Shown here: positions 18,770-43,292 of the stretch, piece after piece
How the letters are laid out: each line of letters begins with the position of its first letter
Numbering within the stretch: position 1 is the first letter of the stretch
Assembly (NCBI GenBank): GCA_011390385.1
Contig: JAABSN010000007.1
Span: forward strand, 1-45,132
Source: Thioalkalivibrio nitratireducens
GTDB taxonomy: Bacteria; Pseudomonadota; Gammaproteobacteria; Ectothiorhodospirales; Ectothiorhodospiraceae
DNA: 45,132 bases
Reading direction: 5' to 3'
Notes under the pieces: generated by a model
Database searches by the model: none
Told to the model about the DNA's origin: nothing
What the model saw: the letters and a program-made list of their open reading frames with translations, nothing else
Made by a program: the position numbers and the translations under genes

Positions 18770-21700
18770 ATGCACCTGCTCCGAACCTTCCTGTTCATCC
18801 TGGCCCTGGCCCTGTCCCTGCCGTGGCTGACACCAGCAACGGCGCAGGCTCAGAACGACGAGCCTGCTCAGCCGGTAATCACAACCTCTGATCTGCTCGA
18901 ACTTCGTGAATCGCTGCGCGAGGGGATCCTTCGGGTTGCGCCCATGATCGAAGCCGTGGACCCCGGTCCGGCGACAGACTGGCTGGAAGCGAGCCCCATG
19001 GAGCACCTGACCGCGCGACTCGAGGCTTCGGGCGAGGGAACACCATCACGAAGCTTGTGGCAGGCCGCACTGGAACACGAGCAGGCAGGTGGTGAACGCA
19101 TTCGCGGTGCTCTGGACCGTGCTGCTCTGGCCGCCAGCACCGAGGATCGACTGGTCGAGACGGAGCGCCGCATACAGGAAATCATCGACTCCCGACGCAC
19201 TCTGGCCGCTATCGACGCCGACCGGAGTCTCACTCGCATCGAGCAGGATCTGGCCGCCGCAGGCCAGAGGCGCAGCCACATCTCGTTGGAAATCGATCAG
19301 AAACGCCAGACGCTCGAGCGCCTTGATGCACAAATGCGCACCCAGGAGGAAGACCTTGAACAAGTGCGTCAGGGACTTGCTGCGGAGCTGGACACCACGC
19401 CCTGGGGTCCACTCGAGGAGGCCACGCTTGTGGACGGCTTCGAGGCATGGGAACAGGCGCGGGAACGGCGTGCAGCCGCACGGATCATCGCCGCTCAACT
19501 GGACAGACAGACGCTGGGACCGCGCACGGAGACCCTGCGGCTGGAGATAGGGGCGCTGGAGGCGGAACGCCAATGGCTCGCACAGCGACTGCAACAGCTC
19601 GCCGCAGAAATGGAGGAGCGCGCGGGAGAGGAACTGCGGGCCCTGCGCGACGAAATCGGGCGCCTGACCGAACGCGACCCGGAGGCCGCGGTACGCTTCG
19701 CATCGGAGATTCAGACCCTGTATCAGCGGATCGAGCGCGTAGTGGAGACCCAGTCCCGCGTGCGCGAACTTCAGAGCCTGCGCGAGCGCCACGAGCAGCT
19801 TGAGCGTGAGCTGACCCAGACCCTTGCAAGCATCCGCGAGCGACAGGAAATCGGTGGCCTGACCGACGTCCTCGGTGGTCTGTTGATGGAGGAGGAGAGA
19901 CGCCTGCGGCGCCTGGGCGACCTCAGTTTGGTGCTGCGCAACATCGAACGGGAACTGGCTCAGTCCAGACTGCGCGACATCACCCTTCGCGACGAGTTGC
20001 GTGCCCTGCCGCCACCACCGCCCGAAATGGTCGACGACATGGCGCAAAGCGAACTGCGCCGGCTGCAGCGCGAGGTGATCGAGAGCCAGCTGCGCGCTGA
20101 CGAGCAGCTGACCGAACAGCTCCAGCTTGCCGAAAGCCGATTGCGCGCGGTGGTTCAGCAGGTCGATGAACTGTCGCGGATCCTGCGCGAGGCCCTGTTG
20201 TGGTGGCCCAGCCATTCGCAAGTGGGGATCGAATGGTCGCAGCGGGTTCCGGCCGCGGTGATGGCGCTTCTGGATCCAGCATCGTGGCAAGAGTTCTCCG
20301 GCGCGTTGCACGCTGTGACCATCGGCGGACCCGCCGGCGCGCTGGCCACTCTTCTCGTCGCTGGCCTTCTGATGATGTGGGGGCGTCGCGTACGAAGCCA
20401 TTTGGCCCGGCTCGCGGAAATGACGACCCATCGCTTCACCGATCGTATCGGCCTGACCTTTCAGGCGATCGGATGGAGCCTCCTGCGCGTCCTGCCGATA
20501 CCTGTGCTCCTGGTCTCGACGGGTTTTCGGATCGAGCAGATCCCGGATATCGGCCCGGGCGTGGAGATCCTGGCCCTGGTCCTTTTCAGTGCCGCGCTCT
20601 GGTGGGTGGTCGGTCACCTGTTCCTGCTATTCACCAGCAAGAACGGTGTCGGCATGGCGCATCTCGACTGGAACCCGCTCGTCGTCCAGCGCCTGCGCAG
20701 ACATCTCGCCTGGTACCTTCCCGCGCAGTTACTGCTCATCGTCTTCCTTGCGCTCACTTTCGGACATCCCAGTGAACTCGTGGCCGATGTGTTCGGCCGC
20801 GCTGGACTGCTCGCCGCCACGCTGTTCACAGGCGTTTTCGCCTGGCGCATGCTCGCGCCGCGCACCGCGGCACAGGCCAGCGAACGCCAGGAACGCCGAC
20901 GACGCCTGGTCCGCATCGCGCTCACCCTCCTTACCCTGGTGCTGGTCGGCCTTGTCCTGTCCGGCTACCTGCTCACGGTCGGGACACTGCTCGGCCGGAT
21001 CATCAACACCGTGATCGTGGTCGCAGGGGTGTGGCTGGGCTTCAGCCTCGCGGAGCGGGCACTGGTGCTGAGCGAGACCCGACTGATGATTCGCAGAATG
21101 CGCGAGCAGCGGGCAAAAAACGCAGCGGTACTGGCTGGAAGCGCGGCCGGCGAAGGCGCTGTACTCGACATCCCGGAACCCCACCTCAGCGTGGAGAACA
21201 TCAATCAGCAGACCATGATTCTGCTTCGGGTCACCGCCGGCGCTGCGCTGGCCCTCGGCATCCTATGGGTCTGGGCCGACATTCTCCCGGCACTGACCTG
21301 GCTCGATGGCGTGACCCTGTGGTCGCGCACCATTGTCGTCGGCGAAACCGAGTTCCTGAGCCGCGTGAGCCTTCAGGATTTTCTGCTGGCGGTCTTCCTG
21401 GGGATGCTGTTCACCCTGGCAGCGAGGAATCTGCCCGGGTTGATGGAAATCGTGCTCTCTCGCAGCACTCTGATGGACGCCGCCGGTCGCTACACGGTTA
21501 CCACGCTACTGCGCTACGTTCTCGCGGTGGTCGCGGTGATCAGCGTGTTTTCGCTGCTCGGACTGCGCTGGAGTGAACTGCAGTGGATGGTCGCCGCGCT
21601 GACCCTGGGCCTCGGCTTCGGTTTGCAGGAAGTCGTGGCCAACTTCGTGTCTGGCCTCATCATGCTCTTCGAACGTCCGGTGCGTGTCGGCGATACCATC

Positions 21701-22216
21701 ACCATCGGCGAATTCAGTGGTACGGTGGCACGCATTCGCACCCGCGCGACGACGATCGTGGACTGGGACAACCGCGAGATCGTCATACCGAACAAGAGTT
21801 TCATCACCGAACGATTGATCAACTGGACTCTGTCCGACACCATGACCCGGGTCGTGATCCCGGTCGGTGTCAGCTACGACGCCGATGTCGATGAGGTCAT
21901 TCGGACGTTGCAGACGATCGCCGAGGCCAGCCCGCTGGTTTTGAAAGAACCACCGCCCAATGTACTGTTCCTGAAATTCGGCGACAGTGCGCTGAACTTC
22001 GAGCTGCGGACCTACGTCAACCAGATGAAGGATCGCCTGGTCACCATCAGCGACCTGCATCAGACCATCATCAAGGAATTCCGCAGCAAGGGAATCGAGA
22101 TCGCCTACCCTCAGATGGACCTTCACATCCGTGACGTTGCGGCTGGCGGCGACCCGGTTGCATCATCGGCGCCGCCGCAGGCACCGGCATCCACGGACCC
22201 GCGCCCGGCCGACTGA
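18770..22216 (+). CDS. Large mechanosensitive channel, MscK/KefA type
   Basis: The 1148-residue protein starts with a signal peptide (MHLLRTFLFILALALSLPWL) followed by a long periplasmic coiled-coil domain (about 40-500) rich in E, R, Q and L heptads (MscS_porin type). About eleven membrane segments follow from residue 520. The MscS core is at about 930-1120, with LGLGFGLQEVVANFVSGLIM as the pore helix. The beta domain contains RPVRVGDTITIGEFSGTV and the IVIPNKSFITERLINWT segment. Such channels open when osmotic downshock stretches the inner membrane and release solutes. The length and layout match KefA/MscK. No other osmotic gene is adjacent. Confidence 0.93.
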   Translation: MHLLRTFLFILALALSLPWLTPATAQAQNDEPAQPVITTSDLLELRESLREGILRVAPMIEAVDPGPATDWLEASPMEHLTARLEASGEGTPSRSLWQAALEHEQAGGERIRGALDRAALAASTEDRLVETERRIQEIIDSRRTLAAIDADRSLTRIEQDLAAAGQRRSHISLEIDQKRQTLERLDAQMRTQEEDLEQVRQGLAAELDTTPWGPLEEATLVDGFEAWEQARERRAAARIIAAQLDRQTLGPRTETLRLEIGALEAERQWLAQRLQQLAAEMEERAGEELRALRDEIGRLTERDPEAAVRFASEIQTLYQRIERVVETQSRVRELQSLRERHEQLERELTQTLASIRERQEIGGLTDVLGGLLMEEERRLRRLGDLSLVLRNIERELAQSRLRDITLRDELRALPPPPPEMVDDMAQSELRRLQREVIESQLRADEQLTEQLQLAESRLRAVVQQVDELSRILREALLWWPSHSQVGIEWSQRVPAAVMALLDPASWQEFSGALHAVTIGGPAGALATLLVAGLLMMWGRRVRSHLARLAEMTTHRFTDRIGLTFQAIGWSLLRVLPIPVLLVSTGFRIEQIPDIGPGVEILALVLFSAALWWVVGHLFLLFTSKNGVGMAHLDWNPLVVQRLRRHLAWYLPAQLLLIVFLALTFGHPSELVADVFGRAGLLAATLFTGVFAWRMLAPRTAAQASERQERRRRLVRIALTLLTLVLVGLVLSGYLLTVGTLLGRIINTVIVVAGVWLGFSLAERALVLSETRLMIRRMREQRAKNAAVLAGSAAGEGAVLDIPEPHLSVENINQQTMILLRVTAGAALALGILWVWADILPALTWLDGVTLWSRTIVVGETEFLSRVSLQDFLLAVFLGMLFTLAARNLPGLMEIVLSRSTLMDAAGRYTVTTLLRYVLAVVAVISVFSLLGLRWSELQWMVAALTLGLGFGLQEVVANFVSGLIMLFERPVRVGDTITIGEFSGTVARIRTRATTIVDWDNREIVIPNKSFITERLINWTLSDTMTRVVIPVGVSYDADVDEVIRTLQTIAEASPLVLKEPPPNVLFLKFGDSALNFELRTYVNQMKDRLVTISDLHQTIIKEFRSKGIEIAYPQMDLHIRDVAAGGDPVASSAPPQAPASTDPRPAD

Positions 22217-23819: not shown

Positions 23820-23862
23820 CCAGGAGCCTGTCGGACTCAGGCTGCGTCTACTGCACCGGTGG
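23820..23862. repeat. Partial copy of the 29.3-kb MITE end
   Basis: CAGGAGCCTGTCGGACTCAG and the following GGCTGCGTCTACTGCACCGG match the left end of the element at 29272 nearly base for base for about 42 bp and then diverge. No matching right end was found nearby, so this is a solo end or a decayed element. The stop codon and last few codons of the minus-strand RimK-like gene fall in it (stop at 23848-23850). Confidence 0.7.
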
Positions 23863-25386
23863 GGCAGCGAGGACTTCGGTGGTCTCCGACGGCGGCGAAC
23901 GAGTGGTTGCGGCCTGATTGCGGCGGGCCGTATCCAGGCGCCGCACGAAGTCCTCCATCAGGCTACGGTAAAGCCCTTCACCGATCACCTTGTCCTCGAC
24001 ACCGGCATCCAGATTCGGGTTGTCGTTGACCTCGATGACCATGACCCCGCGTTCGGTCATCTTAAGATCCACCCCGTACAGGCCATCGCCGATCAGATTC
24101 GCCGCTTTCACCGCTGTACGAACCACGGCAGCCGGCGCCTCGGTAACACCCAGTGTCCGGAACCCACCATGTCGGGGACCACCCTTGGCCTCGTGGTTCA
24201 CGATCTGCCAGTGTTTGCGCGACATCATGTACTGAGAGGCATAAAGCGGTTTCTTGTTCAGTACGCCGATACGCCAGTCGAATTCGGTGTAGACGAACTC
24301 CTGGGCAAGGATCAGATCGCTTTCCTTCAGCAGTTTTTTCGCGATCGACTCGAGTTCCGACCGGGTACTCGCCTTGAACACACCGCGCGAGAAACTGCCG
24401 TCCGGAATCTTGAGCACTACCGGGTAGCCAATCAGCTCCTCGGCACGCAGGACCGTGTCGCGATTCAGGATCACGGTCTTCGGTGTCGGTACTTTCTGGG
24501 CAGCGAGCCGCTCGGCCAGATAAACCTTGTTGGTACACCGCAGAATCGAGTTGGGGTCATCGATGACCACCATCCCTTCGCCTTCCGCCTTGCGCGCAAA
24601 GCGGTAGGTGTAATGATCGATCCGGGTCGTCTCCCGGATGAACAATGCGTCGAACTCGGCCAGCCGGCCGAAGTCCCGGGCCTGAATCAGCTCCACGTCG
24701 ACCCCGAGCGCGCGACCGGCACGAACGAAACGGTTGAGTGCAGCTGGGCTGGAGGGCGCCAGTTGCTCCGCGGGATTGTGCAGGATCGCGAGATCGTAAC
24801 GGTGACTCTTCGCCCCTCGTGGGCGGCGCCAGGGCTTCTTCAGATAACCTTCCAGCGCGTTGAAGAAGTCCGGCTCCTGCTCTTCCGGCAGGGCGTTCAG
24901 CGTGAAGGGTTTCAGTGCCTGGATCTGCCACTGCCCCTGCAACCGGAACTCGACCTTGAACATCGGAGCCGGAAACAGGCTGAACAGTTGAGCGGCAATC
25001 TCCTGCATCTCCTTCGGCGCACATTGACCGAAAAACACCGTGAGTTCGAGCACGACGGGTTGCAGGCCAGCCCGGCTGCGGCCGAGAACGCGGGCCACCT
25101 TGCGGTCGATGTCTTCGGTATCCAGACTGTAGATCGCCTTGCGTGAAAGATCCTGCAGGGTTCGCACGCTGGGAATCACCCGATGCCCGCGGGCCTCCGC
25201 AAGCAGCGAACCGTAATAACCCTCGGAGAGATAACGCTGACTTCGGCAGAGATTGATCACCCGCAGATTGGTCGGGTAGTCCTCGGCCGGTCCTTTGAGG
25301 TAGTCGTCGATGGTCGCGACCGGCAACGCGGGAAAGTGGGCCTTCCAGTCCGACTTGCGCTCGACCAGAAGCAGATGTTCAGACAT
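23848..25386 (-). CDS. RimK-like ATP-grasp ligase
   Basis: The 512-residue protein has an N-terminal RimK-like domain (about 1-190, MSEHLLLVERKSDW start, FGQCAPKEMQEIA). A further domain with FIRETTRIDHYTYRFARKAE follows, then a C-terminal ATP-grasp domain. That domain carries GYPVVLKIPDGSFSRGVFKA, LILAQEFVYTEFDWRIGVL and the metal-binding VIEVNDNPNLDAG. ATP-grasp ligases of this type join an amino acid to a carboxylate through an acyl-phosphate; the substrate here is unknown. The start was chosen at the second ATG, nine bases after GGGAG. It overlaps the upstream GNAT-peptidase gene by eight bases. The C-terminus (APPVQ) is encoded by the partial repeat. Confidence 0.9.
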   Translation of the reverse strand: MSEHLLLVERKSDWKAHFPALPVATIDDYLKGPAEDYPTNLRVINLCRSQRYLSEGYYGSLLAEARGHRVIPSVRTLQDLSRKAIYSLDTEDIDRKVARVLGRSRAGLQPVVLELTVFFGQCAPKEMQEIAAQLFSLFPAPMFKVEFRLQGQWQIQALKPFTLNALPEEQEPDFFNALEGYLKKPWRRPRGAKSHRYDLAILHNPAEQLAPSSPAALNRFVRAGRALGVDVELIQARDFGRLAEFDALFIRETTRIDHYTYRFARKAEGEGMVVIDDPNSILRCTNKVYLAERLAAQKVPTPKTVILNRDTVLRAEELIGYPVVLKIPDGSFSRGVFKASTRSELESIAKKLLKESDLILAQEFVYTEFDWRIGVLNKKPLYASQYMMSRKHWQIVNHEAKGGPRHGGFRTLGVTEAPAAVVRTAVKAANLIGDGLYGVDLKMTERGVMVIEVNDNPNLDAGVEDKVIGEGLYRSLMEDFVRRLDTARRNQAATTRSPPSETTEVLAAPPVQ

Positions 25387-26593
25387 GAGGATCATCTCCC
25401 GGCTCGGCGCGCGGCCCCACGATCACGGCTGCCTGCAGCCCGGCACGCCCATAGCGCGCCATGCGCTCGAAATCCCGGCGCAGAATGGGCATGTTCACGG
25501 AATCCAGCGCACGCTCCCCCTCGTCGACATCGACCAGGGGGTCGTGCACATAAACGAAGCGGTCGTCGAAACCGGTCACCGTCACCCAGTGCGGAAAACG
25601 CTCCGAGTAGATGCGTACGCTGCTGATCAGCACCACGGGAACACAGCCGGCATTGAATCGCGCCTCCAACCCGGCGACATTCACTGGCCCGTGCACGATA
25701 GGAACCCCCCGCTGCTCCAGATCTTCCACCATGTCCTCCTGTACCAGGCGCATCACGCGCTTCTTGTCCTCGCTGCGTACCGAATCAAAAAAGGCGACCC
25801 CGCTGTCCCGCACCAGCAGTTCCACGTCATGGCCGCGACACGCAGCCGCCAGCGCCAGCCCATAGGGGCCACAGCCGCCGTGGCCCGAGGTCATGAAGAT
25901 GGTGGTCGCCTCGCGCCACAGGCGGAGTTCGAGGCGGCGATCGAGTTTCAATGCCGGGTCGAGTGCGCGCATCGCCATCATCAACGCTGCGGGGCCACAG
26001 GTAAAATCGAGCGTCTGGGCATAATACGGCGCCCGCACCAGAGCCGGATCGGGTCCGGGTGCCAGCGACTTCTGCAGCCGCAGCGCACCCATGTGGTCCT
26101 CGTAGTAGTCGTCGATGGTGCCGAATTCCCGATACCCCAAGCCATGAAACAGCGCCAGGCTCGCGGTGTTGTCCCGGCGCACTTCAAGGCGCAGATCGGC
26201 ACAGCCGCTGGCAAAGGCCTCTTCCTCGGCAGCTCGAACAAGCTGCCGCCCGAGGCCCAGACCCCTGGCCGCCCCACTCACCGCAATCGAATACAGCCGC
26301 GCCAGCGATGTACCTCGGCTGAACAGCACCATTACGTAACCCAGCAGCCCCTGGCTCGACGGATCGGGGGCCACCAAGGTTCGGGCATGACCGCGGGTCA
26401 GCAGGTAGCGAAACTGGCGGCGTGAAATCCTGTCGCCATGAAAAGACGCCTGCTCGAGTGCCACCAGCGCGTCGACATCCTCGATACCCGCCGCGCGGAT
26501 ACCCGGGGCCGAAGGTTTCGGCTGAACAGGCGGGCAAGCGCCCTCGCCGGATCCCGGGGGTGCTCGCCTGGTGGATGGGTCCCGTTTTGTCAA
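25379..26593 (-). CDS. GNAT acetyltransferase fused to a C39-like peptidase
   Basis: The 404-residue protein has two domains. Residues about 30-175 are a GNAT acetyltransferase with the acetyl-CoA loop GAARGLGLGRQLV and the LEVRRDNTASLALFHGLGY block. Residues about 185-390 are a papain-like C39 peptidase, with C199 in FTCGPAALMMAM, H335 in FPHWVTVTG and D351 in YVHDP. The cysteine-histidine-aspartate set is complete. The frame has no ATG, and TTG at 26593 gives MTKRDP; no strong ribosome-binding site is visible, so the start is uncertain. The stop overlaps the RimK-like start. Partnership with an ATP-grasp ligase suggests a peptide that is made or modified and then cut; this is inference. Confidence 0.88.
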   Translation of the reverse strand: MTKRDPSTRRAPPGSGEGACPPVQPKPSAPGIRAAGIEDVDALVALEQASFHGDRISRRQFRYLLTRGHARTLVAPDPSSQGLLGYVMVLFSRGTSLARLYSIAVSGAARGLGLGRQLVRAAEEEAFASGCADLRLEVRRDNTASLALFHGLGYREFGTIDDYYEDHMGALRLQKSLAPGPDPALVRAPYYAQTLDFTCGPAALMMAMRALDPALKLDRRLELRLWREATTIFMTSGHGGCGPYGLALAAACRGHDVELLVRDSGVAFFDSVRSEDKKRVMRLVQEDMVEDLEQRGVPIVHGPVNVAGLEARFNAGCVPVVLISSVRIYSERFPHWVTVTGFDDRFVYVHDPLVDVDEGERALDSVNMPILRRDFERMARYGRAGLQAAVIVGPRAEPGDDPHV

Positions 26594-34058: not shown

Positions 34059-34412
34059 GGGCGCGGTCGCAGGTGGCGGCATGAGTGAGGACGGGCTCGA
34101 AAGTGGGGGAGGATACCCCGCCCAGACGGGAAACAGGAATGCCGTGCCCGATATTGTCACCAGGATTCGGCCAGCCACGGCCCGCGCGCATGGTTTCCGG
34201 CCACCTCTTGCCAACCGCGATGATCCCTCGAAGTATCGCTTTCGGTACCTGAGTTCAGGGCAACCCGTGGTCAGAATTGGTGCCTTATAACCAATACTTG
34301 CATCATGGTTTTTGGCGGCGCATGATCATGGGACAGGCAGACATTGCGGATCCGCGGTGACGCGTTAGCGGACCCCGGATCCGACTGCGATCGAGCAGCA
34401 GGGGTCGGCTTT
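34059..34412. other. Spacer between the divergent MFS and giant-protein genes
   Basis: Besides the alternative N-termini of both genes, this stretch holds one clear feature, the inverted repeat at 34276-34295. No open frame of recognisable function was found. Confidence 0.5.
34276..34295. promoter_or_regulatory. Inverted repeat, possible operator
   Basis: ATTGGT and ACCAAT are separated by eight bases containing TTATA. The dyad lies between the divergent MFS and giant-protein genes and includes a -10-like element. A regulator could act on either gene, but no regulator gene is adjacent. Confidence 0.35.
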
Positions 34413-37400
34413 ATGTGGTCTGTACTTGCGGGGGGCCTTATGTGTGGCAATGCCAGTTTCGGGCAGGTGTCCTGTTTTCACCGGTTTCCTGCTCCGGTGT
34501 CGGCGGAAACAGCGAAGCACTCGCCACGACCGCGATCAGGAGCGCAGCACAGCACCCACCCCCTGCGCTCCGCTTGCCTCTGGGTCGGGCTGTTGCTGGT
34601 GTCGATTTCATTGGCCTGGCCGGTCGGCGGGTTTGCTCGAGAGGCCCCCGGCCCGGTGACGATCGGGTTGCAGGTGGTAGAGACTGGGCAACCGGTTCCG
34701 GGGGCCACGGTGCAGGTCGGGGCAAGGTTTGCCGTGACCGGTCCCGCCGGGGCCGTCACGTTTGATGGTCTGCCGTCAGGCTCCCATGCGTTGGCGGTTG
34801 CCACTCCGGGCTTCGAACGGGTCGAGCAGCCCATCCGAATCGTCGATGGTGCACGTCCGAAGATCACTCTGAATCTGGTTCCCGTCACGACGCTGCCGTT
34901 ATCCGGAAGCGTCACCCTGAATGACCATGGTGCCCCCCTGCCCGGGACCCGTCTGACACTGGCCCCCGTTGACGTTCGGGCGGCCATCCAGGGTTCGTAC
35001 CAATTCACCAGCGACATGAATGGGGAATTTGCGGTTCCGGAGGTACCCCCGGGCGTCTATCGCCTGACTGCCGAAGCCGTGGGCTGCGAACCCGCGGAGC
35101 TGAGTCTTCATGTCGAGGAGGGCATGGAACCCGTGGTGCTGCAACTGCGGGCCGAGACGCAGGCTGCAGCACTCTCGGTGCGTGTGCGCGACGCGACCCA
35201 TGGCGGGGCGATCGCCGATGCCTGGATCACGCTGGCCGAAGCATGGCCGCGTGGCGTGATCGCCCGGGGAACGACGGGTCAGGACGGCGCATTGCTGCTG
35301 GAGGGACTGGCGACCGGCCTGCGCAACTGGGAGGCCCCGGACGCCCTGGCGGAATTCGAAGGTATCTGGTTCACCGATAGGGGAAACCTCGAGCTGCGCA
35401 TGCACGGTAACGCCCTGTCCGGCCGCTTCATGCATGGATCCGGCATGCTGGAAGGCGAGGTATCCGCCGATGGCCGCTACGCCAGTGGACGGTGGTGGCG
35501 CCCCATTGCGGATCTGGAAAACGGACAGGAATCCGGCCGGTTCCGTTTCAATCTGGCCGATGACCGAGCCTCGTTCGATGGCGCCTGGGGGCGTGACGAG
35601 GAAGCCGATCCCCGAATTCGCTGGCGCGGAACCCGGGCTGCCGTCTCGAATGTCACGGTGGCATCCGAGACTGCGATGCTCGTGGTACTCGCACCGGGTT
35701 ATGCACCGACCCTGGCACCGGTGCAGCTCGGGCCGGCCACCTCACTGTCCGTTTCGCTCGAGCCCGTGCGGCTTGATGCCGCCGACGGCGATCACACGGA
35801 GATGGCGAGTGCCAGGGAGTTGAAACCGGACATGCCCACGGCGCTGGTCCTCGACAGACCCGGGCGACAGCGGTGGTTCCGTTTCCGCCTGGAGCAGCCG
35901 GCACTCGTTCGGGCAATCGTGGGGCCTGACAATCCGATCCCGGTAAGCCTCGCTCTCCTTGATGCGCAGGGCGCGGTCCTGGGCGACACCTGGGCTTACG
36001 CCGCTCAGGAACCAACGATCGAACGCTGGCTGCCTTCGGGCCAGTATCTCGTGCGCGCGGGCGCACGCGGGAACGTGATGACTGAGCAGCCACTGTGGCT
36101 GCAGATATTCAACGTCCCGGTGTTCGATGCTCATGAGCCAAACAATTCCATCGAGCAGGCCCGGTTGCTGGTCCCCGGCAGGGAGCTGCGCGGTTACCTT
36201 GCCGCCGAGGGCGATGAGGACTGGTTCCGGATCGACGTCCGTCGCCCGGGACAGTTGCGCCTGCAACTCGCCCCCAGTGACCTGGCGCGTTCCCTGGCCC
36301 TTCACGACGCCGAAGGCAATGCCCTGCGTTCGACCTGGGTCTACCGACAGCAACTGCTGACTCTCGATGAATTTCTGGCTCCCGGGACGTATTTCGTTCA
36401 GGTCACGGCACATGGGCAAGCCGCCAGTCTCGACCCCTACACATTGCGCGCGCATTGGATCGGGGACGATGAGGTCACCGATACAGTGCAGACCCAGGGC
36501 CGGATCGATACACCCCGTACCCTGATGCCAGGCACTCTGGCTGGCAGCGAGATCTTCCCTGCGGGTGATCGTGATTACTACAGGATTCCGGTACCAGGGC
36601 GCGGTCGCGTGCACGTGCGATCGATTGCGGTCATCGCTCATGAAATCGAACTGCTGAGTTCTCGCCAAGAGCCCTGGAGTTCTACCTGGGCCTACGGCGG
36701 GCAACCGGCCACTCTCGCGCGCGATGCGGAAGGCGCCGAAACGTGGTTTCTCAGGGTGGGGGCACGCGGCAACGGTGCCAGTACCCAACCGAACGTCGTT
36801 TCCGTCTGGTTCGAGCCTGAAGACGAGCTCGGGGCAATGGCGGGGCACAGCAGCCCGGAGCGCGCGGCACCCCTGGATCTTCTGGCACCGGTACGCGGCT
36901 CGCTGTTCCCGGTCGGGGATCAGGATTGGTACGGCATCGAGGTCGATCATCCCGGCCTGCTGCGCCTGACCAATACAGCTTCCGTCGCGCATGAACTGCA
37001 GGTCCATGACCCCGACGGTCGGCGCCTTGCCAGCACCTGGAGCTACGCCGGCAAAGCCGCGAAGCTCGAGGTTGCCGTGCTGCCGGGTACGCACCTGGTC
37101 CACGTAAGTGCCCGCGGTTCCGGAGCACATTCCGGACAATACGAGCTCGCTGGTGAACTGGTGCGCGCGGAGCCGATGGAATCGGTGCCTCTAGCCCAGG
37201 ATGCCGAGCGGACACTCCATCTGAACGAGGCGCAGGCTTGGAAACCGGATCAGCCGGGTGATGTCGACCGCTTTCTGTTCAATGTCACCCAACCGGGTGA
37301 ATTTGTCGTGGCCGTCAAGGCGCCGGTGCCGGTAAACGTCCAGCTCAGCGATGCACAGACCGGCGCCAGCGTGTTCAGCACCTGGGGCTACGCAAACTCC

Positions 37401-40400
37401 CGAATCGTACAGCGGGTGAGTGCCGATGGCCCGACCCGATATCGACTCGAGCTGTCCGGACGGGGCAATGTCTGGACTCTGTCACCGGGCTATGTCCTGG
37501 TATCGGAACACGAACGTGAGCCGCCCCTCGGCCAGATGGTGGCTGCTGTGGATCCACTGGACCCGCTGCAGGTGACGTTCCGGTTCGAGCCCAGCGACGG
37601 TTATGCCGCACCTGTCGAAATCGGGATCGACGCGAACGGCAACGGGCACATCGATTTGCGGCTGTCCCCCGGCGATCAGGCCGACTGGCGTTACCCTGCT
37701 GAAGGTTTGTTCCGCGCCGAAGCACGATTTCACGGCGATGCCGGATTACCCACGCGCCTGCCGTTCTGGGTGCAGGCACAGGGCCCAAGGGAAAGAACCG
37801 GGGTCGTGGTTCTGGTGGATATGCCGTCCGAAGGCCAGGTACTGAACGATCGGAGTCCGGTTTCCGTCCGGGCGATCAGCTATGGTGGCGCACCCATCGC
37901 CCGTGTCGAGGCCGCACTGGATGACTGGCCGCTGCCGGCGGCGCATACGGCTCCGTACCGATTCGACCTGCCATGGTGGGAACTGACGGGAACCGAGCAT
38001 CTTCTCCGGGTCACGGCCATGGACGCCAGCGGCGAGCAGGCGACGACCGAACGCCGATTCCGGGTTTCCCCGTATTTCGGCCTGCAGCCCGCTGACGGAG
38101 CCGTGGTCACCGGCAATCAGGTACGCGTGAGCTGGGAAGGCAACGCGTTCGTGGCTGGTGCGGTCCGTTACCGACCGCGGGGTAGCGATGCATGGCACGA
38201 GGTCCAGGGGGACCGCAGTCGTCGCCATGGCTTGCTGTTGCCGGACCTGGAACCCGGTGTGACCTACGAGTTTCAGCCGTTGGCTGGGGACGAGCCCGGG
38301 CCTCTGCGGACCGTAACGCGGGTCAATGGCCTGGCATTCGGGCGTACTGCCTACGGGCCGACGATTGCTCGCGATTACGATCAGCGTGTCCCGGTTTCGG
38401 TACGCAATCACGCCGACGAAACCATGAATGTGCGGCTCGTGGCCGGTAGCCCGCGCAGCGACGAACTGCTGATCGGGTTCGTCGAGGAGGGTGCTGCCGA
38501 GCGGCCGTTTGCGCTGGCTCCGGGCGAAGAACGGTATTTCACGCTGTCGCTGAATGCGCAGGACGCCAACCGCGAGCACTACCGATTCCCGGTGCGCATC
38601 GAGTCCGACTCGGGATATTCCGACGAAGCCGAGGTCCGTGTTTCGGTACGCCTGCCGAAAGTCGAACTGGCGTGGGAGGAACTCGGGCCCACCGACACCG
38701 GGCTGGGGTTGCGTTATCGGTTGACCAATCGCGGCGACGCCCTGACCGATCTGACAGTGCGTTCCGACAGTGCGGAGATTTTCGTCTCACCCAGTATCGA
38801 GCATGGCCTGCTGCCAGCCGGGCAAGCCATCCAGCTGACCGCCTATCCCCGCCTGCACGACGGTTTCCAGTCGGCCAGCGGGCAATTGCGGGCGACCGCG
38901 GTCGGGCAGGTGAGCACTCAGGCCGTCAACCTCGTGGTACCGGAAGGACAGCGAGTCTACCAGGTGCTGCTGGCACCGGAAGCGGGTGCCGAGACGATGG
39001 ACCCGGCCGACGCCGAACTGCTGGCCGCTCGAACCCTCGCCGCAGCCTACCTGAATCCGGACTACATTCGCCCTGAAAACTGGAGTGATGGTGCGGATAC
39101 CACCGGCAATGGACGCTCCGACCGGTGGACCTTCATTGACGAGCTCGAACGTATTCTCTGGATCGGGGAGGACACTCGGGGTGACGGCGAGATCGACTAT
39201 GTTTCCGCGGATGTGGGATTCGATGGCCAGTTCGACTATGCCGCCGTCCGCGGCCGTTCCGGATGGCAACGGACCAGTATCCTGGACATCTGGGCGGAAA
39301 CCGGCTTCACCCACCCGAGCACACGGTCCAGCTACGATCCCTACGATGTCGACGTCGTAGTGAACGGTGTCGTCGTCGGCGAACTGCGCGACAGTCTTCC
39401 CGAAGGCAATCACCGCTTTCGGATTCCGGTCACCGCACTGAGTTTCGACAGCGCGGGCATCCCCGCCGGCAATGTGCTGGAGGTTCGTTCGCGCCGCATG
39501 GGCGGTGGTCACTATGGAATGAGCAGCGATTTCCAGGTCAAGACCCGACTGACCAGCACCCCGATCTGGACCGTCGCCGCCACTCGAGAAGAGGCCGAGG
39601 CGGGATTGCGGCAGACAGCGGGATTGCTGCTCGATGAGCCCGACTACAGCGTGGCATCGGATGAAATATCGCTGGTGCTACCGGCGGAGATGGCGGCAGG
39701 CGCCGTTGGCACCCTGCGAATCCCGGTACGCAACCTGGGCGTGGCGAGCGACGGCATCGTGCCGGTCGCCCTCAGCTACGCGATACCCCGCGGGGGCGAG
39801 GGAGAACTGCAACGGGTGTTCCTGCCCGCGATCGCCGCGAGCGCGACCCAAACGGCAGAGTTCGAGTGGAGCCTTGTTGCCGGTCAGCAGCGTTTACGCG
39901 TGACCGTCGACCCGGATGCCGAAACGGCGGATGTGCACCGCGCCAACAATGACGCCTACATCTGGGTCGACGTCCCCGGCGATGACGAAGCGCCCCGATT
40001 GGAGATCCTGTCACCTGTCGACGGAGCCAACCTGTCGGAGCCGGTCGCTACACTCAGCGTCCGTGCTGATGACGACGTACGGATCGAAAGGGTCGAGGCT
40101 CGGATCGACGGCGGGCTCTGGACTCCACTGGAATGGAAGGAAGAGAACCGCTATGACGGCGCTGTACTGCTGCAACCCGGCACACGGCTGCTGACCGTGC
40201 GTGCGACCGATGGCGCCGGGAATATCGTCGAACGCAGTGCGAGCGTTTTCGTGCGGGTGGACCCGCCGACGATTCGAGTCCAGGCTCCCCCTGAAGGTGC
40301 CACTGTGGATACGCGCGAGGTCCTGGTACAGGCAAGCACGGGGACGGGCATCGCGCTGGCTGCAGCAAGGGTCAACGGGGGACCATGGCAGGCGCTGGAA

Positions 40401-43292
40401 CTGTCCGATGACGGAGCCAGCGGCCGGATCGCGCTGGACTTCGGCGACAACCGGCTTGAGATCAAGGCCGTGACGGCGACGGGCGTCGAAAGCATCGAAA
40501 GCCTGACGGTCTCCAGCATGGCTCGTCGCGAAATCGAGACTGCCAGCGACGCCATGGGAGAGGCGGATGCCGATGCCCTGGCCCGGCGGGCGGCACGGCT
40601 GATGGGCGCGGGTGATTACGAGGGAGCACTGGATGCCTTCCGCGCCAGCCATGCACTGCGCCCGGATCCTGCAGTGGAAGATCGCGTTCGTCGCCTCGAA
40701 GCCTATCTGCGCGTGCGACCCGGCGCTCCACGAGGGCCGGCGCGAGCCGCTCCATCGGTCACACCCCCGGCGGCAACCGGCTTACCGGGAACCGAGCCGA
40801 GGGACGGTCCGGGAATACAGGAATCCGCTCGGCCGCCATCCACGCCGGTGGTCCCTGAGGCGCCGGCGCCGGCCGCCCGGGCCCCTGATGGGGTCGAGAT
40901 TCCCGGATTCGGGCGGCGAGGTCTGAACGAAGAGGGCAGCCGCCTGCGGCCACCTGCGCCGGATGCGCCCCTTGCGCCAACACGCGCACCCCCATCAGGT
41001 CCACTGCCGGATCCGGACCTGGACGACACGCTCATGCCGGAGCCGATCGCCGCTCCTGAGCTCGACGATGAATTACTCGCATTGCTCGATCAGCTGGAGG
41101 AGGACCTGAACGCAGGGTTGACCGACGTGGTGGATGCCTACGACGGCGGACCACTTCCCGGAGAGCCGGAAGGAGAACCGCTGGATCTCGAGCACATGCT
41201 TCCCGAGTTGAGCGAGGCACTGCTGGATTATTTCCAGAATCTCGCGGAACAATTCGGGTTCGATCAGTTCCCTCCGGGCAGCCTGAACGTCGACGACGAC
41301 AATCCTGATATCGGCCCGCTGCCCCCGCACGGACTGGGTCAACTGCCGCCTCCGGGGCGATCGGTAGCCGTGCGACACACCCAGCATGCCCACCACTGCA
41401 CCAATCGACCCAATATCCGGATGCCTTTCCAGCTCCCGGAGTGGCTCAAACTGATCGACCTGCCCGAACCGGGTTCAGCGGAATACGAGGCCATGATCGG
41501 GAAACTCCTGCAGCGGCTGCGGGATCAGGGCATCGATACTGCCGCTTTCGAGCAATTCCACCAGGCGTTGCGGCGACGCGCGGGACGACTGGATTCTCCG
41601 GACGAACTCCCGGGCTGGCTTGAATCACTGGGTCTGGCCGGGCCTGCACCAAAAAACGAATCCGAACTGAAGGCTTGGCGGGAGGCGATGACGACGCGCG
41701 TCGATGCGTTCTGGCTGCGCCTGCTGGCCTCCGGCGATCCTCAATTGATCTACCAGGGGTTGAGCGCGCGAGCGGATGCCTTCGGAAAATTCGACGAAGC
41801 CCTGCAGATATCGGCCCAGGCTGCACTGGAAGAGATCAAGGCCAAACAACAATTGACCGAGGAGGTACTGCGCGCCATTCCGAAGGTCGGGACGGCATTG
41901 GATATCCTCCTGTTGGCTCGCGGCGAGTCCCTGTCTGGTGACAAACTGACCTGGGGACAGGCGGGGATGATCGTGGGCTTCAGGGCGCTGATGGCTCTGG
42001 GTCCCGCGGGCGCCAAGGGCCTGTACAACCGGGCGATGAATACCGAAAACGGACGCATGTTCTTCCAGGCACTGGGTGAGATGGGGCCCAACATGGGCGC
42101 CAGCGGGGTGCGCGGACTGGCGCGCGTCTTCGGCACCTCGGAGAAAAAGGTCCGCGATATCTTTGCCTGGGCCGGTGACCAGATGACCCGGGAACGCAGC
42201 CTGCGCGGAGGCATCAATGGCCTGTTCGGACGGCAGGCGCAGGCGGCGGGGCGGAACTTCGTCCCGTTGCGCGCGGGCCAGTCGGCGATTTATCAGCAGC
42301 GCATCGAGCGCCGCCATGCCGAGCGGTTGCTCGACCGCATGGCGGGCACCACGGACCGCCACGAGTTCCGCCGGCTCGCGGTACAGCTCCAGGCCAACAA
42401 GACCGCACAGGCCGTAATCAATACGCCACGTTACAGCGATGCGCTGCGGCTCAAGGCGGAGCGCAGCCGAGCCGCGATGGGCCGGTTGGCAGACCGGCGC
42501 ACGGCGGACGATATCCTCCGGATGGCCCCACGGGAAAATGGTCTCGAGCGGGTTTTGCGCAGCAACCCCGCGTTGAACCGGGACGACGTGATTGTCCGTG
42601 CCCGAACGATCACGACCCATCGGGCCGGGCAAGGCCCGGTGAGTTTCGGCCGAGACCGGGACGTCTGGTTCGAGTTCGTCGATCGACGGACGGGACGCCG
42701 CCTCGGAGATATCCATCACGATGTATCCAAACCCGTCTACAGCGGTCATCTCCGCACGATCACCGGCCGCGATGCCGAGTCGCTGGATCACGCCGTGACC
42801 AGTTGGTGGCATCCCGATGCCTATGCCACCGGCCGTTACACGGCCGACTCGCACGGCCGGGCCGCACTGGTCGTCGGTTCCGGCAGACGGGCAGGTGATC
42901 TGCAGCGGGCGCGCGACGTGGCCGACACCGCGCGCTACAAGCCGAAGGAATGGTTTGATCCTCCCCGCGATGCACAGGGCAGGATTCGGCCGATGGGCCC
43001 GATGGAGCAGAACCAGCGTATCCGGGAGGGAATGCGGCAGACGATCAAGGAATACGATCGTCACGTGGCTCCATACCTTCGGGACCAGGGAATCGGGCCT
43101 GATCGACTGCCGCCGCGCCTGCAACAGGGACTGGATATCTTCCGCGATGTGCAGGAGGGTGTGCTGGACGACCGCATGACGCCCGAGCAGGCGCTCCGTA
43201 TGCTCGAGGCTCTTCCGGGCAACGCCACGCCGCAGACGATCGCGGATGATCTGGCGCAACTGGTACAGTTTCTCAACATCTGGGGATTGTAG
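34413..43292 (+). CDS. Giant secreted multidomain protein, unknown function
   Basis: This single uninterrupted frame encodes about 2959 residues. A long basic lead is followed by an export signal (ACLWVGLLLVSISLAW, about 54-69, cleavage near 75). Domains in order: three carboxypeptidase-regulatory-like beta domains (about 80-450), the third holding an inserted barrel-like stretch (312-409); five tandem beta-sandwich repeats of about 115 residues (467-1032); a D-A-N-G-N-G-H-I-D calcium-loop motif (about 1072); Ig-like domains; a second cluster of calcium-loop motifs (about 1560-1612); a CARDB-like domain (1750-1855); two Ig-like domains (to about 2036); a short TPR-like helix pair; a proline-rich then acidic linker (about 2110-2310); and an unassigned C-terminal part of about 630 residues. 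The start is uncertain: AGGGG lies eight bases before 34413, but ATGs at 34344 and 34440 and a GTG at 34497 are possible. It is probably exported by Sec; how it is held at the surface is not visible. Confidence 0.9.
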   Translation: MWSVLAGGLMCGNASFGQVSCFHRFPAPVSAETAKHSPRPRSGAQHSTHPLRSACLWVGLLLVSISLAWPVGGFAREAPGPVTIGLQVVETGQPVPGATVQVGARFAVTGPAGAVTFDGLPSGSHALAVATPGFERVEQPIRIVDGARPKITLNLVPVTTLPLSGSVTLNDHGAPLPGTRLTLAPVDVRAAIQGSYQFTSDMNGEFAVPEVPPGVYRLTAEAVGCEPAELSLHVEEGMEPVVLQLRAETQAAALSVRVRDATHGGAIADAWITLAEAWPRGVIARGTTGQDGALLLEGLATGLRNWEAPDALAEFEGIWFTDRGNLELRMHGNALSGRFMHGSGMLEGEVSADGRYASGRWWRPIADLENGQESGRFRFNLADDRASFDGAWGRDEEADPRIRWRGTRAAVSNVTVASETAMLVVLAPGYAPTLAPVQLGPATSLSVSLEPVRLDAADGDHTEMASARELKPDMPTALVLDRPGRQRWFRFRLEQPALVRAIVGPDNPIPVSLALLDAQGAVLGDTWAYAAQEPTIERWLPSGQYLVRAGARGNVMTEQPLWLQIFNVPVFDAHEPNNSIEQARLLVPGRELRGYLAAEGDEDWFRIDVRRPGQLRLQLAPSDLARSLALHDAEGNALRSTWVYRQQLLTLDEFLAPGTYFVQVTAHGQAASLDPYTLRAHWIGDDEVTDTVQTQGRIDTPRTLMPGTLAGSEIFPAGDRDYYRIPVPGRGRVHVRSIAVIAHEIELLSSRQEPWSSTWAYGGQPATLARDAEGAETWFLRVGARGNGASTQPNVVSVWFEPEDELGAMAGHSSPERAAPLDLLAPVRGSLFPVGDQDWYGIEVDHPGLLRLTNTASVAHELQVHDPDGRRLASTWSYAGKAAKLEVAVLPGTHLVHVSARGSGAHSGQYELAGELVRAEPMESVPLAQDAERTLHLNEAQAWKPDQPGDVDRFLFNVTQPGEFVVAVKAPVPVNVQLSDAQTGASVFSTWGYANSRIVQRVSADGPTRYRLELSGRGNVWTLSPGYVLVSEHEREPPLGQMVAAVDPLDPLQVTFRFEPSDGYAAPVEIGIDANGNGHIDLRLSPGDQADWRYPAEGLFRAEARFHGDAGLPTRLPFWVQAQGPRERTGVVVLVDMPSEGQVLNDRSPVSVRAISYGGAPIARVEAALDDWPLPAAHTAPYRFDLPWWELTGTEHLLRVTAMDASGEQATTERRFRVSPYFGLQPADGAVVTGNQVRVSWEGNAFVAGAVRYRPRGSDAWHEVQGDRSRRHGLLLPDLEPGVTYEFQPLAGDEPGPLRTVTRVNGLAFGRTAYGPTIARDYDQRVPVSVRNHADETMNVRLVAGSPRSDELLIGFVEEGAAERPFALAPGEERYFTLSLNAQDANREHYRFPVRIESDSGYSDEAEVRVSVRLPKVELAWEELGPTDTGLGLRYRLTNRGDALTDLTVRSDSAEIFVSPSIEHGLLPAGQAIQLTAYPRLHDGFQSASGQLRATAVGQVSTQAVNLVVPEGQRVYQVLLAPEAGAETMDPADAELLAARTLAAAYLNPDYIRPENWSDGADTTGNGRSDRWTFIDELERILWIGEDTRGDGEIDYVSADVGFDGQFDYAAVRGRSGWQRTSILDIWAETGFTHPSTRSSYDPYDVDVVVNGVVVGELRDSLPEGNHRFRIPVTALSFDSAGIPAGNVLEVRSRRMGGGHYGMSSDFQVKTRLTSTPIWTVAATREEAEAGLRQTAGLLLDEPDYSVASDEISLVLPAEMAAGAVGTLRIPVRNLGVASDGIVPVALSYAIPRGGEGELQRVFLPAIAASATQTAEFEWSLVAGQQRLRVTVDPDAETADVHRANNDAYIWVDVPGDDEAPRLEILSPVDGANLSEPVATLSVRADDDVRIERVEARIDGGLWTPLEWKEENRYDGAVLLQPGTRLLTVRATDGAGNIVERSASVFVRVDPPTIRVQAPPEGATVDTREVLVQASTGTGIALAAARVNGGPWQALELSDDGASGRIALDFGDNRLEIKAVTATGVESIESLTVSSMARREIETASDAMGEADADALARRAARLMGAGDYEGALDAFRASHALRPDPAVEDRVRRLEAYLRVRPGAPRGPARAAPSVTPPAATGLPGTEPRDGPGIQESARPPSTPVVPEAPAPAARAPDGVEIPGFGRRGLNEEGSRLRPPAPDAPLAPTRAPPSGPLPDPDLDDTLMPEPIAAPELDDELLALLDQLEEDLNAGLTDVVDAYDGGPLPGEPEGEPLDLEHMLPELSEALLDYFQNLAEQFGFDQFPPGSLNVDDDNPDIGPLPPHGLGQLPPPGRSVAVRHTQHAHHCTNRPNIRMPFQLPEWLKLIDLPEPGSAEYEAMIGKLLQRLRDQGIDTAAFEQFHQALRRRAGRLDSPDELPGWLESLGLAGPAPKNESELKAWREAMTTRVDAFWLRLLASGDPQLIYQGLSARADAFGKFDEALQISAQAALEEIKAKQQLTEEVLRAIPKVGTALDILLLARGESLSGDKLTWGQAGMIVGFRALMALGPAGAKGLYNRAMNTENGRMFFQALGEMGPNMGASGVRGLARVFGTSEKKVRDIFAWAGDQMTRERSLRGGINGLFGRQAQAAGRNFVPLRAGQSAIYQQRIERRHAERLLDRMAGTTDRHEFRRLAVQLQANKTAQAVINTPRYSDALRLKAERSRAAMGRLADRRTADDILRMAPRENGLERVLRSNPALNRDDVIVRARTITTHRAGQGPVSFGRDRDVWFEFVDRRTGRRLGDIHHDVSKPVYSGHLRTITGRDAESLDHAVTSWWHPDAYATGRYTADSHGRAALVVGSGRRAGDLQRARDVADTARYKPKEWFDPPRDAQGRIRPMGPMEQNQRIREGMRQTIKEYDRHVAPYLRDQGIGPDRLPPRLQQGLDIFRDVQEGVLDDRMTPEQALRMLEALPGNATPQTIADDLAQLVQFLNIWGL
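35811..37508 (+). repeat. Five tandem protein repeats (PPC-like beta sandwiches) inside the giant gene
   Basis: Each unit of about 115 residues contains a D-W/Y-F/Y-R-I-like strand, then an S/D-T-W-x-Y motif (tryptophans at residues 527, 642, 759, 876 and 991, spacing 115, 117, 117 and 115), and ends with a G-T/Q-x-L/F-V-x-V/A-x-A-R/H-G motif such as YLVRAGARGN. The pattern resembles bacterial pre-peptidase C-terminal domains. Repeats are divergent at DNA level, so duplication is old. Confidence 0.8.

Follow-up and report, generated by a model that had tools for sequence, protein, structure and literature searches.

A giant, presumably secreted protein of Thioalkalivibrio nitratireducens belongs to an uncatalogued family with a transferable, enzyme-like C-terminal module

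We analyzed a stretch of 45,132 nucleotides from Thioalkalivibrio nitratireducens (contig JAABSN010000007.1 of assembly GCA_011390385.1; hereafter, the window), and in particular a gene of almost 9 kb in it that encodes a giant protein, P0001. The results showed that this gene genuinely belongs to a large and uncatalogued family, whose members are presumably secreted. The long N-terminal stalk of P0001 is shared by many co-linear relatives, and its C-terminal module is conserved, is absent from some stalk proteins and is found on other carriers. We think it quite possible, if a little short of probable, that the family consists of secreted, effector-like proteins tipped with an enzyme.

The frame runs from the ATG at 34413 for 2,959 codons without a stop. 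At the base composition of the gene (65% guanine plus cytosine, GC), 2.6% of codons would be stops by chance, and the natural logarithm of the probability that none occurs in 2,959 codons is -77.8. The GC content by codon position keeps a single pattern along the whole gene, and no long direct repeats were found within it. Thus the single open frame of about 9 kb described in the original prediction is real. The possibility raised there, that the frame is a fusion caused by an assembly error, is excluded because co-linear relatives sit on other contigs; one of them, P0002, is 56% identical to P0001. An artefact, whether a chance open frame or a misassembly of two genes, has nothing in its favor beyond the length of the frame, and in view of these relatives and the uniform composition we regard it as practically negligible. 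A TTG at 34344 is also in frame with the ATG. The GTG at 34497, which lies 47 codons ahead of REAPGP, is likely to be the better start, because in many relatives a hydrophobic stretch is shortly followed by (R)xAPGP, with which the mature part begins.

When residues 2400-2959 were used as a query, we obtained 45 proteins, that is, P0001 itself and 44 others. Nearly all of them have 2.4-2.95 thousand residues (P0018 has 2,025), and they are mostly co-linear throughout. The stalk (residues 1100-1600) gave 130 matches at E 1e-5, and the following counts refer to the 120 listed, P0001 included. The first helical segment of the module (CT1) and the last domain were both present in 76 of them, and neither was present in 37 (two of these, P0081 and P0089, are marked partial). 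The latter form a stalk-only family of about 1.9-2.5 thousand residues, in which the Ig domains are the last of the shared parts and some members carry a TPR or another tail behind them; by eye, a stretch similar to the TPR-like pair of P0001 ends some of them. The other seven possess the CTNRP motif or CT1 without the last domain. P0051 has the stalk, CTNRP, CT1 and pre-toxin region of the giant family followed by a different tip. In P0058, P0059, P0060 and P0098 the same stalk is followed by TPR and other segments, and YCTNRP lies almost at the C-terminal end, which suggests a rearranged module; the P0058 type also has a diverged NTDRDY...HPEA stretch that looks like the last domain (in a profile comparison, one pair at E 0.015 with a probability of only 3%). 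The record of P0072 calls it partial, and the sequence of P0074 seems to run out of frame. The proposed search for the same N-terminus with different C-termini gave module-bearing, module-free and odd forms, and a clearly different tip in one protein, P0051, against 76 proteins with the same tip.

The module also occurs on carriers other than the stalk. A search with an alphaproteobacterial relative possessing another N-terminus (L005, 1,650 residues) gave 35 proteins, among which were P0134-P0137 (1,632-1,651 residues), P0138 and P0139 (920 and 921 residues; the former named Hydrogenimonas urashimensis) and P0144 (1,212 residues). No stalk match at E 1e-3 was seen in these seven carriers, and by eye P0137, P0138, P0139 and P0144 have hydrophobic N-termini like signal peptides. 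Whole-genome searches added two compact forms with CT1, L077 (804 residues) and L079 (754 residues), and a form of 1,036 residues with no detectable CT1 (L080), so that the non-stalk carriers span 754 to 1,651 residues. In Acetoanaerobium noterae (L069, 2191-6921), a diverged last domain ends a protein of 1,576 residues that has several hydrophobic N-terminal segments (E 1.9e-27 in a set of 146 proteins). Proteins with zinc-ribbon-like ends are encoded near the module gene in both L069 and L080. The distinct terminal module of the original prediction is thus a unit that has been gained, lost and moved between carriers.

We then consider the last domain of the module. Among 101 proteins, ten positions are invariant (G2746, D2748, D2750, Y2776, D2792, T2796, Y2804, K2843, R2875 and K2879), and six others vary once each (R2749, G2807, E2872, G2873, Q2876 and L2903). 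The Acetoanaerobium form keeps DxDVT, Y2776, D2792, T2796, K2843, EG-RQ and K2879 and lacks G2746, H2769 and Y2804; because it has no His pair, that pair is inessential to the wider family. We set aside an HNH-type nuclease (DxHHD), since the Acetoanaerobium form lacks both His residues and the P0058 type retains only one.

No enzyme or toxin family in the libraries searched gave the clear C-terminal match that the original prediction had named as support, and the module remains unassigned as first described: for the last 660 residues of P0001, Pfam gave one sub-threshold row at E up to 5. A 15-row alignment of the last domain (A4) found no convincing name in Pfam, PADLOC, PHROGs, NCBIfam or the PDB sequences; each of the weak rows matches one member of the 15, and the best is an unnamed PHROG (0.002). 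The nearest label for the module is Pre-toxin TG (PF14449), which is precomputed in 13 of the 45 C-terminus relatives, and P0001 itself gave no PF14449 row for its C-terminus at E 5. The T column of that region is T in 24 of the 45 and R in P0001. The predicted C-terminus is largely helical, and the model of the last domain, a confident one (predicted local distance difference test 90.6), shows weak similarities to nucleotidyltransferase and HEPN folds, with no significant match to any solved fold. A Foldseek search of the 660-residue model against BFVD gave nothing at E 0.001. Profile comparison of the last domain with nucleotidyltransferase sets did not rise above controls (L036 and L058, whose translations are short or doubtful, were left out of these sets, and L048 and L060-L068 were unused). 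The nucleotidyltransferase reading is a lead, neither proof nor a result. Judged by their listings, none of the papers listed on pre-toxin TG/PF14449, giant planctomycete proteins, polymorphic toxins and CARDB, PMC3482391 among them, deals with the family.

The distribution of the module is very patchy. The scan of genome contigs gave 16 module loci from 42 pattern matches. The last domain was found in 9 of 392 genomes in the phylum of G004, 3 of 398 in that of G005, 2 of 201 in that of G011 and 3 of 247 in that of G003; these counts from evenly drawn genomes include the chosen centres, other known carriers and two weak, unverified matches (G737, E 4e-8; G283, E 2.7e-5), and are not unbiased rates. 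For G737, the open reading frames (ORFs) called in L078 gave no module match. Twelve of 13 genomes had one match each. The Phycisphaerae genome of L007 (G006) has the domain twice, each time in a frame of close to 2.88 thousand residues. By record names, the carriers are Planctomycetota, Desulfobulbaceae, Lentisphaerae, Fimbriimonadaceae, Armatimonadetes, Alphaproteobacteria, Opitutales, Acidobacteriota, Hydrogenimonas and Acetoanaerobium, which we take to represent at least eight phyla; most of the records are metagenome bins, in which mis-binning is possible. No relative was found in viral contigs, nor any match in phage records. Plasmid records gave no match with the last domain of P0001 and one match, Acetoanaerobium, with P0138; when the Acetoanaerobium domain was the query, it matched itself alone.

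How the family may work can be considered as follows. P0001 would be a Sec-exported carrier in which a signal peptide is followed by a long stalk of calcium-loop and Ig type, a flexible linker and a transferable module some 600 residues long, the last composed of the CT1 helices, the pre-toxin-like stretch and a 230-residue domain with the invariant polar set. We infer from the sequence that the protein is exported and that the last domain is an enzyme. Its chemistry might be nucleotidyl transfer, with GxDxDV as a metal-binding motif and the HEPN-like helical half beside it; given an enzyme-tipped effector, a nucleotidyltransferase fold is plausible and still somewhat doubtful. The stalk may present or deliver the last domain outside the cell to a non-kin target, and such a target would account for there being no immunity gene beside it. 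The most specific form of this proposal, a new family of exported effectors, nucleotidyltransferase-like or of new fold, that ride on exchangeable N-terminal carriers, occur in at least eight phyla by record names, act on non-kin cells and so keep no immunity gene, seems to us unlikely as a whole. The original prediction is partly supported: the secreted stalk, the linker and the transferable module agree with it, and the clear match to an enzyme or toxin family was not obtained.

Several results weigh against a classical polymorphic toxin. Around the 16 loci we found no recurrent neighbour family: comparison of crudely called ORFs gave a single pair (32% over 83 residues), although five loci (L001, L003, L006, L009 and L010) extend no more than about 1.1 kb beyond the gene. 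The same comparison showed no immunity gene beside the giant forms. In the window the following genes are convergent antiporter genes, and by crude ORF calls the next gene in L070 is convergent too. In addition, tip and stalk diverge together. The distance matrices of 93 proteins correlated at 0.59-0.69 between tip and stalk and at 0.76-0.89 among stalk segments; 1,000 shuffles of the tip-stalk comparison gave at most 0.07 (tip against segment S2). With a mean distance of 0.588, against about 0.53 in the stalk, the tip is nearly as slow to diverge as the latter. The giant form is therefore mostly a stable fusion.

Such co-divergence is in favor of a rival explanation, in which the module is no weapon. 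It would then be an exported enzyme directed at the producing cell itself, or a factor that helps to assemble its envelope, acting with other secreted proteins, and the stalk would be its anchor or spacer. The usual single copy and the lack of a recurrent neighbour in giant forms also fit, and so do the genes that follow the module gene in L077 (3864-11001) and L079 (4083-9152), which belong to two phyla. These include two homologous pairs with signal-like N-termini (31% over 416 residues and 43% over 148 residues; in a small set, E 1e-63 and 6e-41). One pair looks beta-rich and the other has about 190 residues. They could be partners or immunity proteins of the compact forms, and the compact carriers with their followers possibly make a small operon system. 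However, a search of 21 genomes for the 190-residue partner gene gave only the 2 in which it was already known, and homologues of the partners were not found near giant forms. The very patchy distribution, the 37 stalk proteins without the module and the pre-toxin TG match of some relatives also speak against an envelope factor, which we hold to be a serious explanation but rather doubtful. The idea that the secreted partners are detached stalk forms was dropped, as no sequence similarity was found. Close upstream of the module gene in L084 (G1206:C104:37307-37513) lies a piece 75% identical to the 190-residue partner gene; with its two TGA stops, it is likely to be a decayed duplicate of that gene.

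A third explanation is that the protein has a structural role alone, as an adhesin or surface fibre, and that its C-terminal module helps it fold, caps it or anchors it without catalysis. The Ig, PPC and calcium-loop character of the stalk, the largely helical model of the C-terminus and the want of a convincing enzyme family would suit it. In contrast, the ten invariant positions, which include Asp, Lys, Arg, Tyr and Thr and persist in 101 proteins on several carriers, look catalytic, and the module occurs without the stalk. We consider this explanation improbable.

The features of P0001 are listed in Table 1. The predicted mosaic of surface-type domains behind a signal sequence was confirmed, as was the order of stalk, flexible linker and terminal module. 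CarboxypepD_reg (1.9e-20), CarbopepD_reg_2, Big_7 (6.2e-11), Glucodextran_B (3e-7) and PEGA lie above the Pfam cut-off, and CARDB, PPC, fn3 and TPR_2 below it. The invariant residues of the calcium-type loops are D1587, G1592, D1595, D1600 and D1604.

Table 1. Features of the P0001 gene and protein (window positions)
Feature	Residues	Positions	Strand	Basis
Giant secreted protein gene, P0001	2,959 in all	34413..43292	+	frame, composition, co-linear relatives
Signal sequence, ending before REAPGP (residue 76)	29-75	34497..34637	+	sequence and relatives' N-termini; putative cleavage
Two CarboxypepD_reg/PEGA-type domains	80-250	34650..35162	+	Pfam
PPC-like beta-sandwich repeats	480-930	35850..37202	+	weak PPC and ColH collagenase matches; conserved in relatives
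Strongly conserved stalk part	1050-1550	37560..39062	+	alignment and searches of relatives
Calcium-loop-like repeats and next segment	1560-1730	39090..39602	+	invariant columns in 45 proteins; putative calcium binding
CARDB-like domain	1753-1847	39669..39953	+	22.1 bits, just below cut-off 22.7
Big_7 / Glucodextran_B Ig-like domains	1861-2034	39993..40514	+	Pfam
TPR-like helical pair	~2045-2095	40545..40697	+	TPR_2, E 0.0069
Pro-rich and acidic linker	2096-2322	40698..41378	+	sequence
Helical segment CT1, first part of transferable module	2320-2500	41370..41912	+	relatives; structure model
HCTNRP motif (YCTNRP in many relatives)	2328-2333	41394..41411	+	C2329, N2331, R2332 invariant in 45
Region equivalent to the Pre-toxin TG of relatives; here ARGESLSG (2502-2509)	~2490-2620	41880..42272	+	placement by eye
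Unnamed enzyme-like domain (GRDRDV 2746, DIHHD 2766, WHPDAY 2799, EGMRQ 2872)	2691-2925	42483..43187	+	conservation and model
DRD	2748-2750	42654..42662	+	both Asp invariant in 101/101 proteins
C-terminal helical half, weakly HEPN-like	2826-2959	42888..43289	+	model

Upstream of the giant gene lies a divergent MFS gene, and downstream a convergent Mnh-type antiporter operon (MNHE by Pfam), two smaller genes of which bear names that we presume. No secretion partner gene adjoins, as had been noted: among the 20 larger window ORFs scanned against Pfam there was no TpsB partner, and Pfam showed no TpsA/CdiA-type secretion domain in P0001. The window also contains the gene order AccC, PrmA, DUF3426 and Dus, which is reminiscent of a gammaproteobacterium, an RLAN-RimK type ATP-grasp protein (23848-25395, minus strand) and a large MscS-type mechanosensitive channel of 1,148 residues (18770-22216); no Rfam element or tRNA was found in it.

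Structural and activity work has a clear target here, a strongly conserved, enzyme-like domain that rides on exported carriers and that none of the searched libraries names. This domain is common to Planctomycetota, several proteobacterial groups, Armatimonadota and a clostridium, and the family offers a test case of effector-like modules persisting as stable fusions without local immunity genes.

Finally, we compared P0001 with known systems. The domain types of its first 2,040 residues match those of surface stalk proteins (CarboxypepD_reg, PPC, CARDB, Big_7), but unlike these, its stalk and module as a whole have no Pfam or NCBIfam name above the cut-off. Like Pol-beta nucleotidyltransferases (CD-NTase, MNT/HEPN), the module has, by eye, a DxD at a strand start after a hydrophobic-[TS]-[GN]-type stretch, and both halves of the last domain weakly resemble the folds of such enzymes and their HEPN-like partner. 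Unlike them, it shows no significant fold or profile match, and a loop lies between two strands where, as we take it, their helix would be expected. Compared with polymorphic toxins, the family differs in that one conserved tip, diverging with the stalk, ends 76 of the 120 listed stalk proteins, in that no immunity gene was seen beside giant forms, and in that P0001 has no PF14449 match. Because no immunity gene was seen and tip diversity is small, we do not file P0001 among polymorphic toxins. In design, it is nevertheless near those with pre-toxin TG: it has the same signal sequence, presentation region, pre-toxin-like stretch and C-terminal tip, PF14449 is matched in some relatives, and the family has exchanged its tip once clearly (P0051) and its carrier several times.
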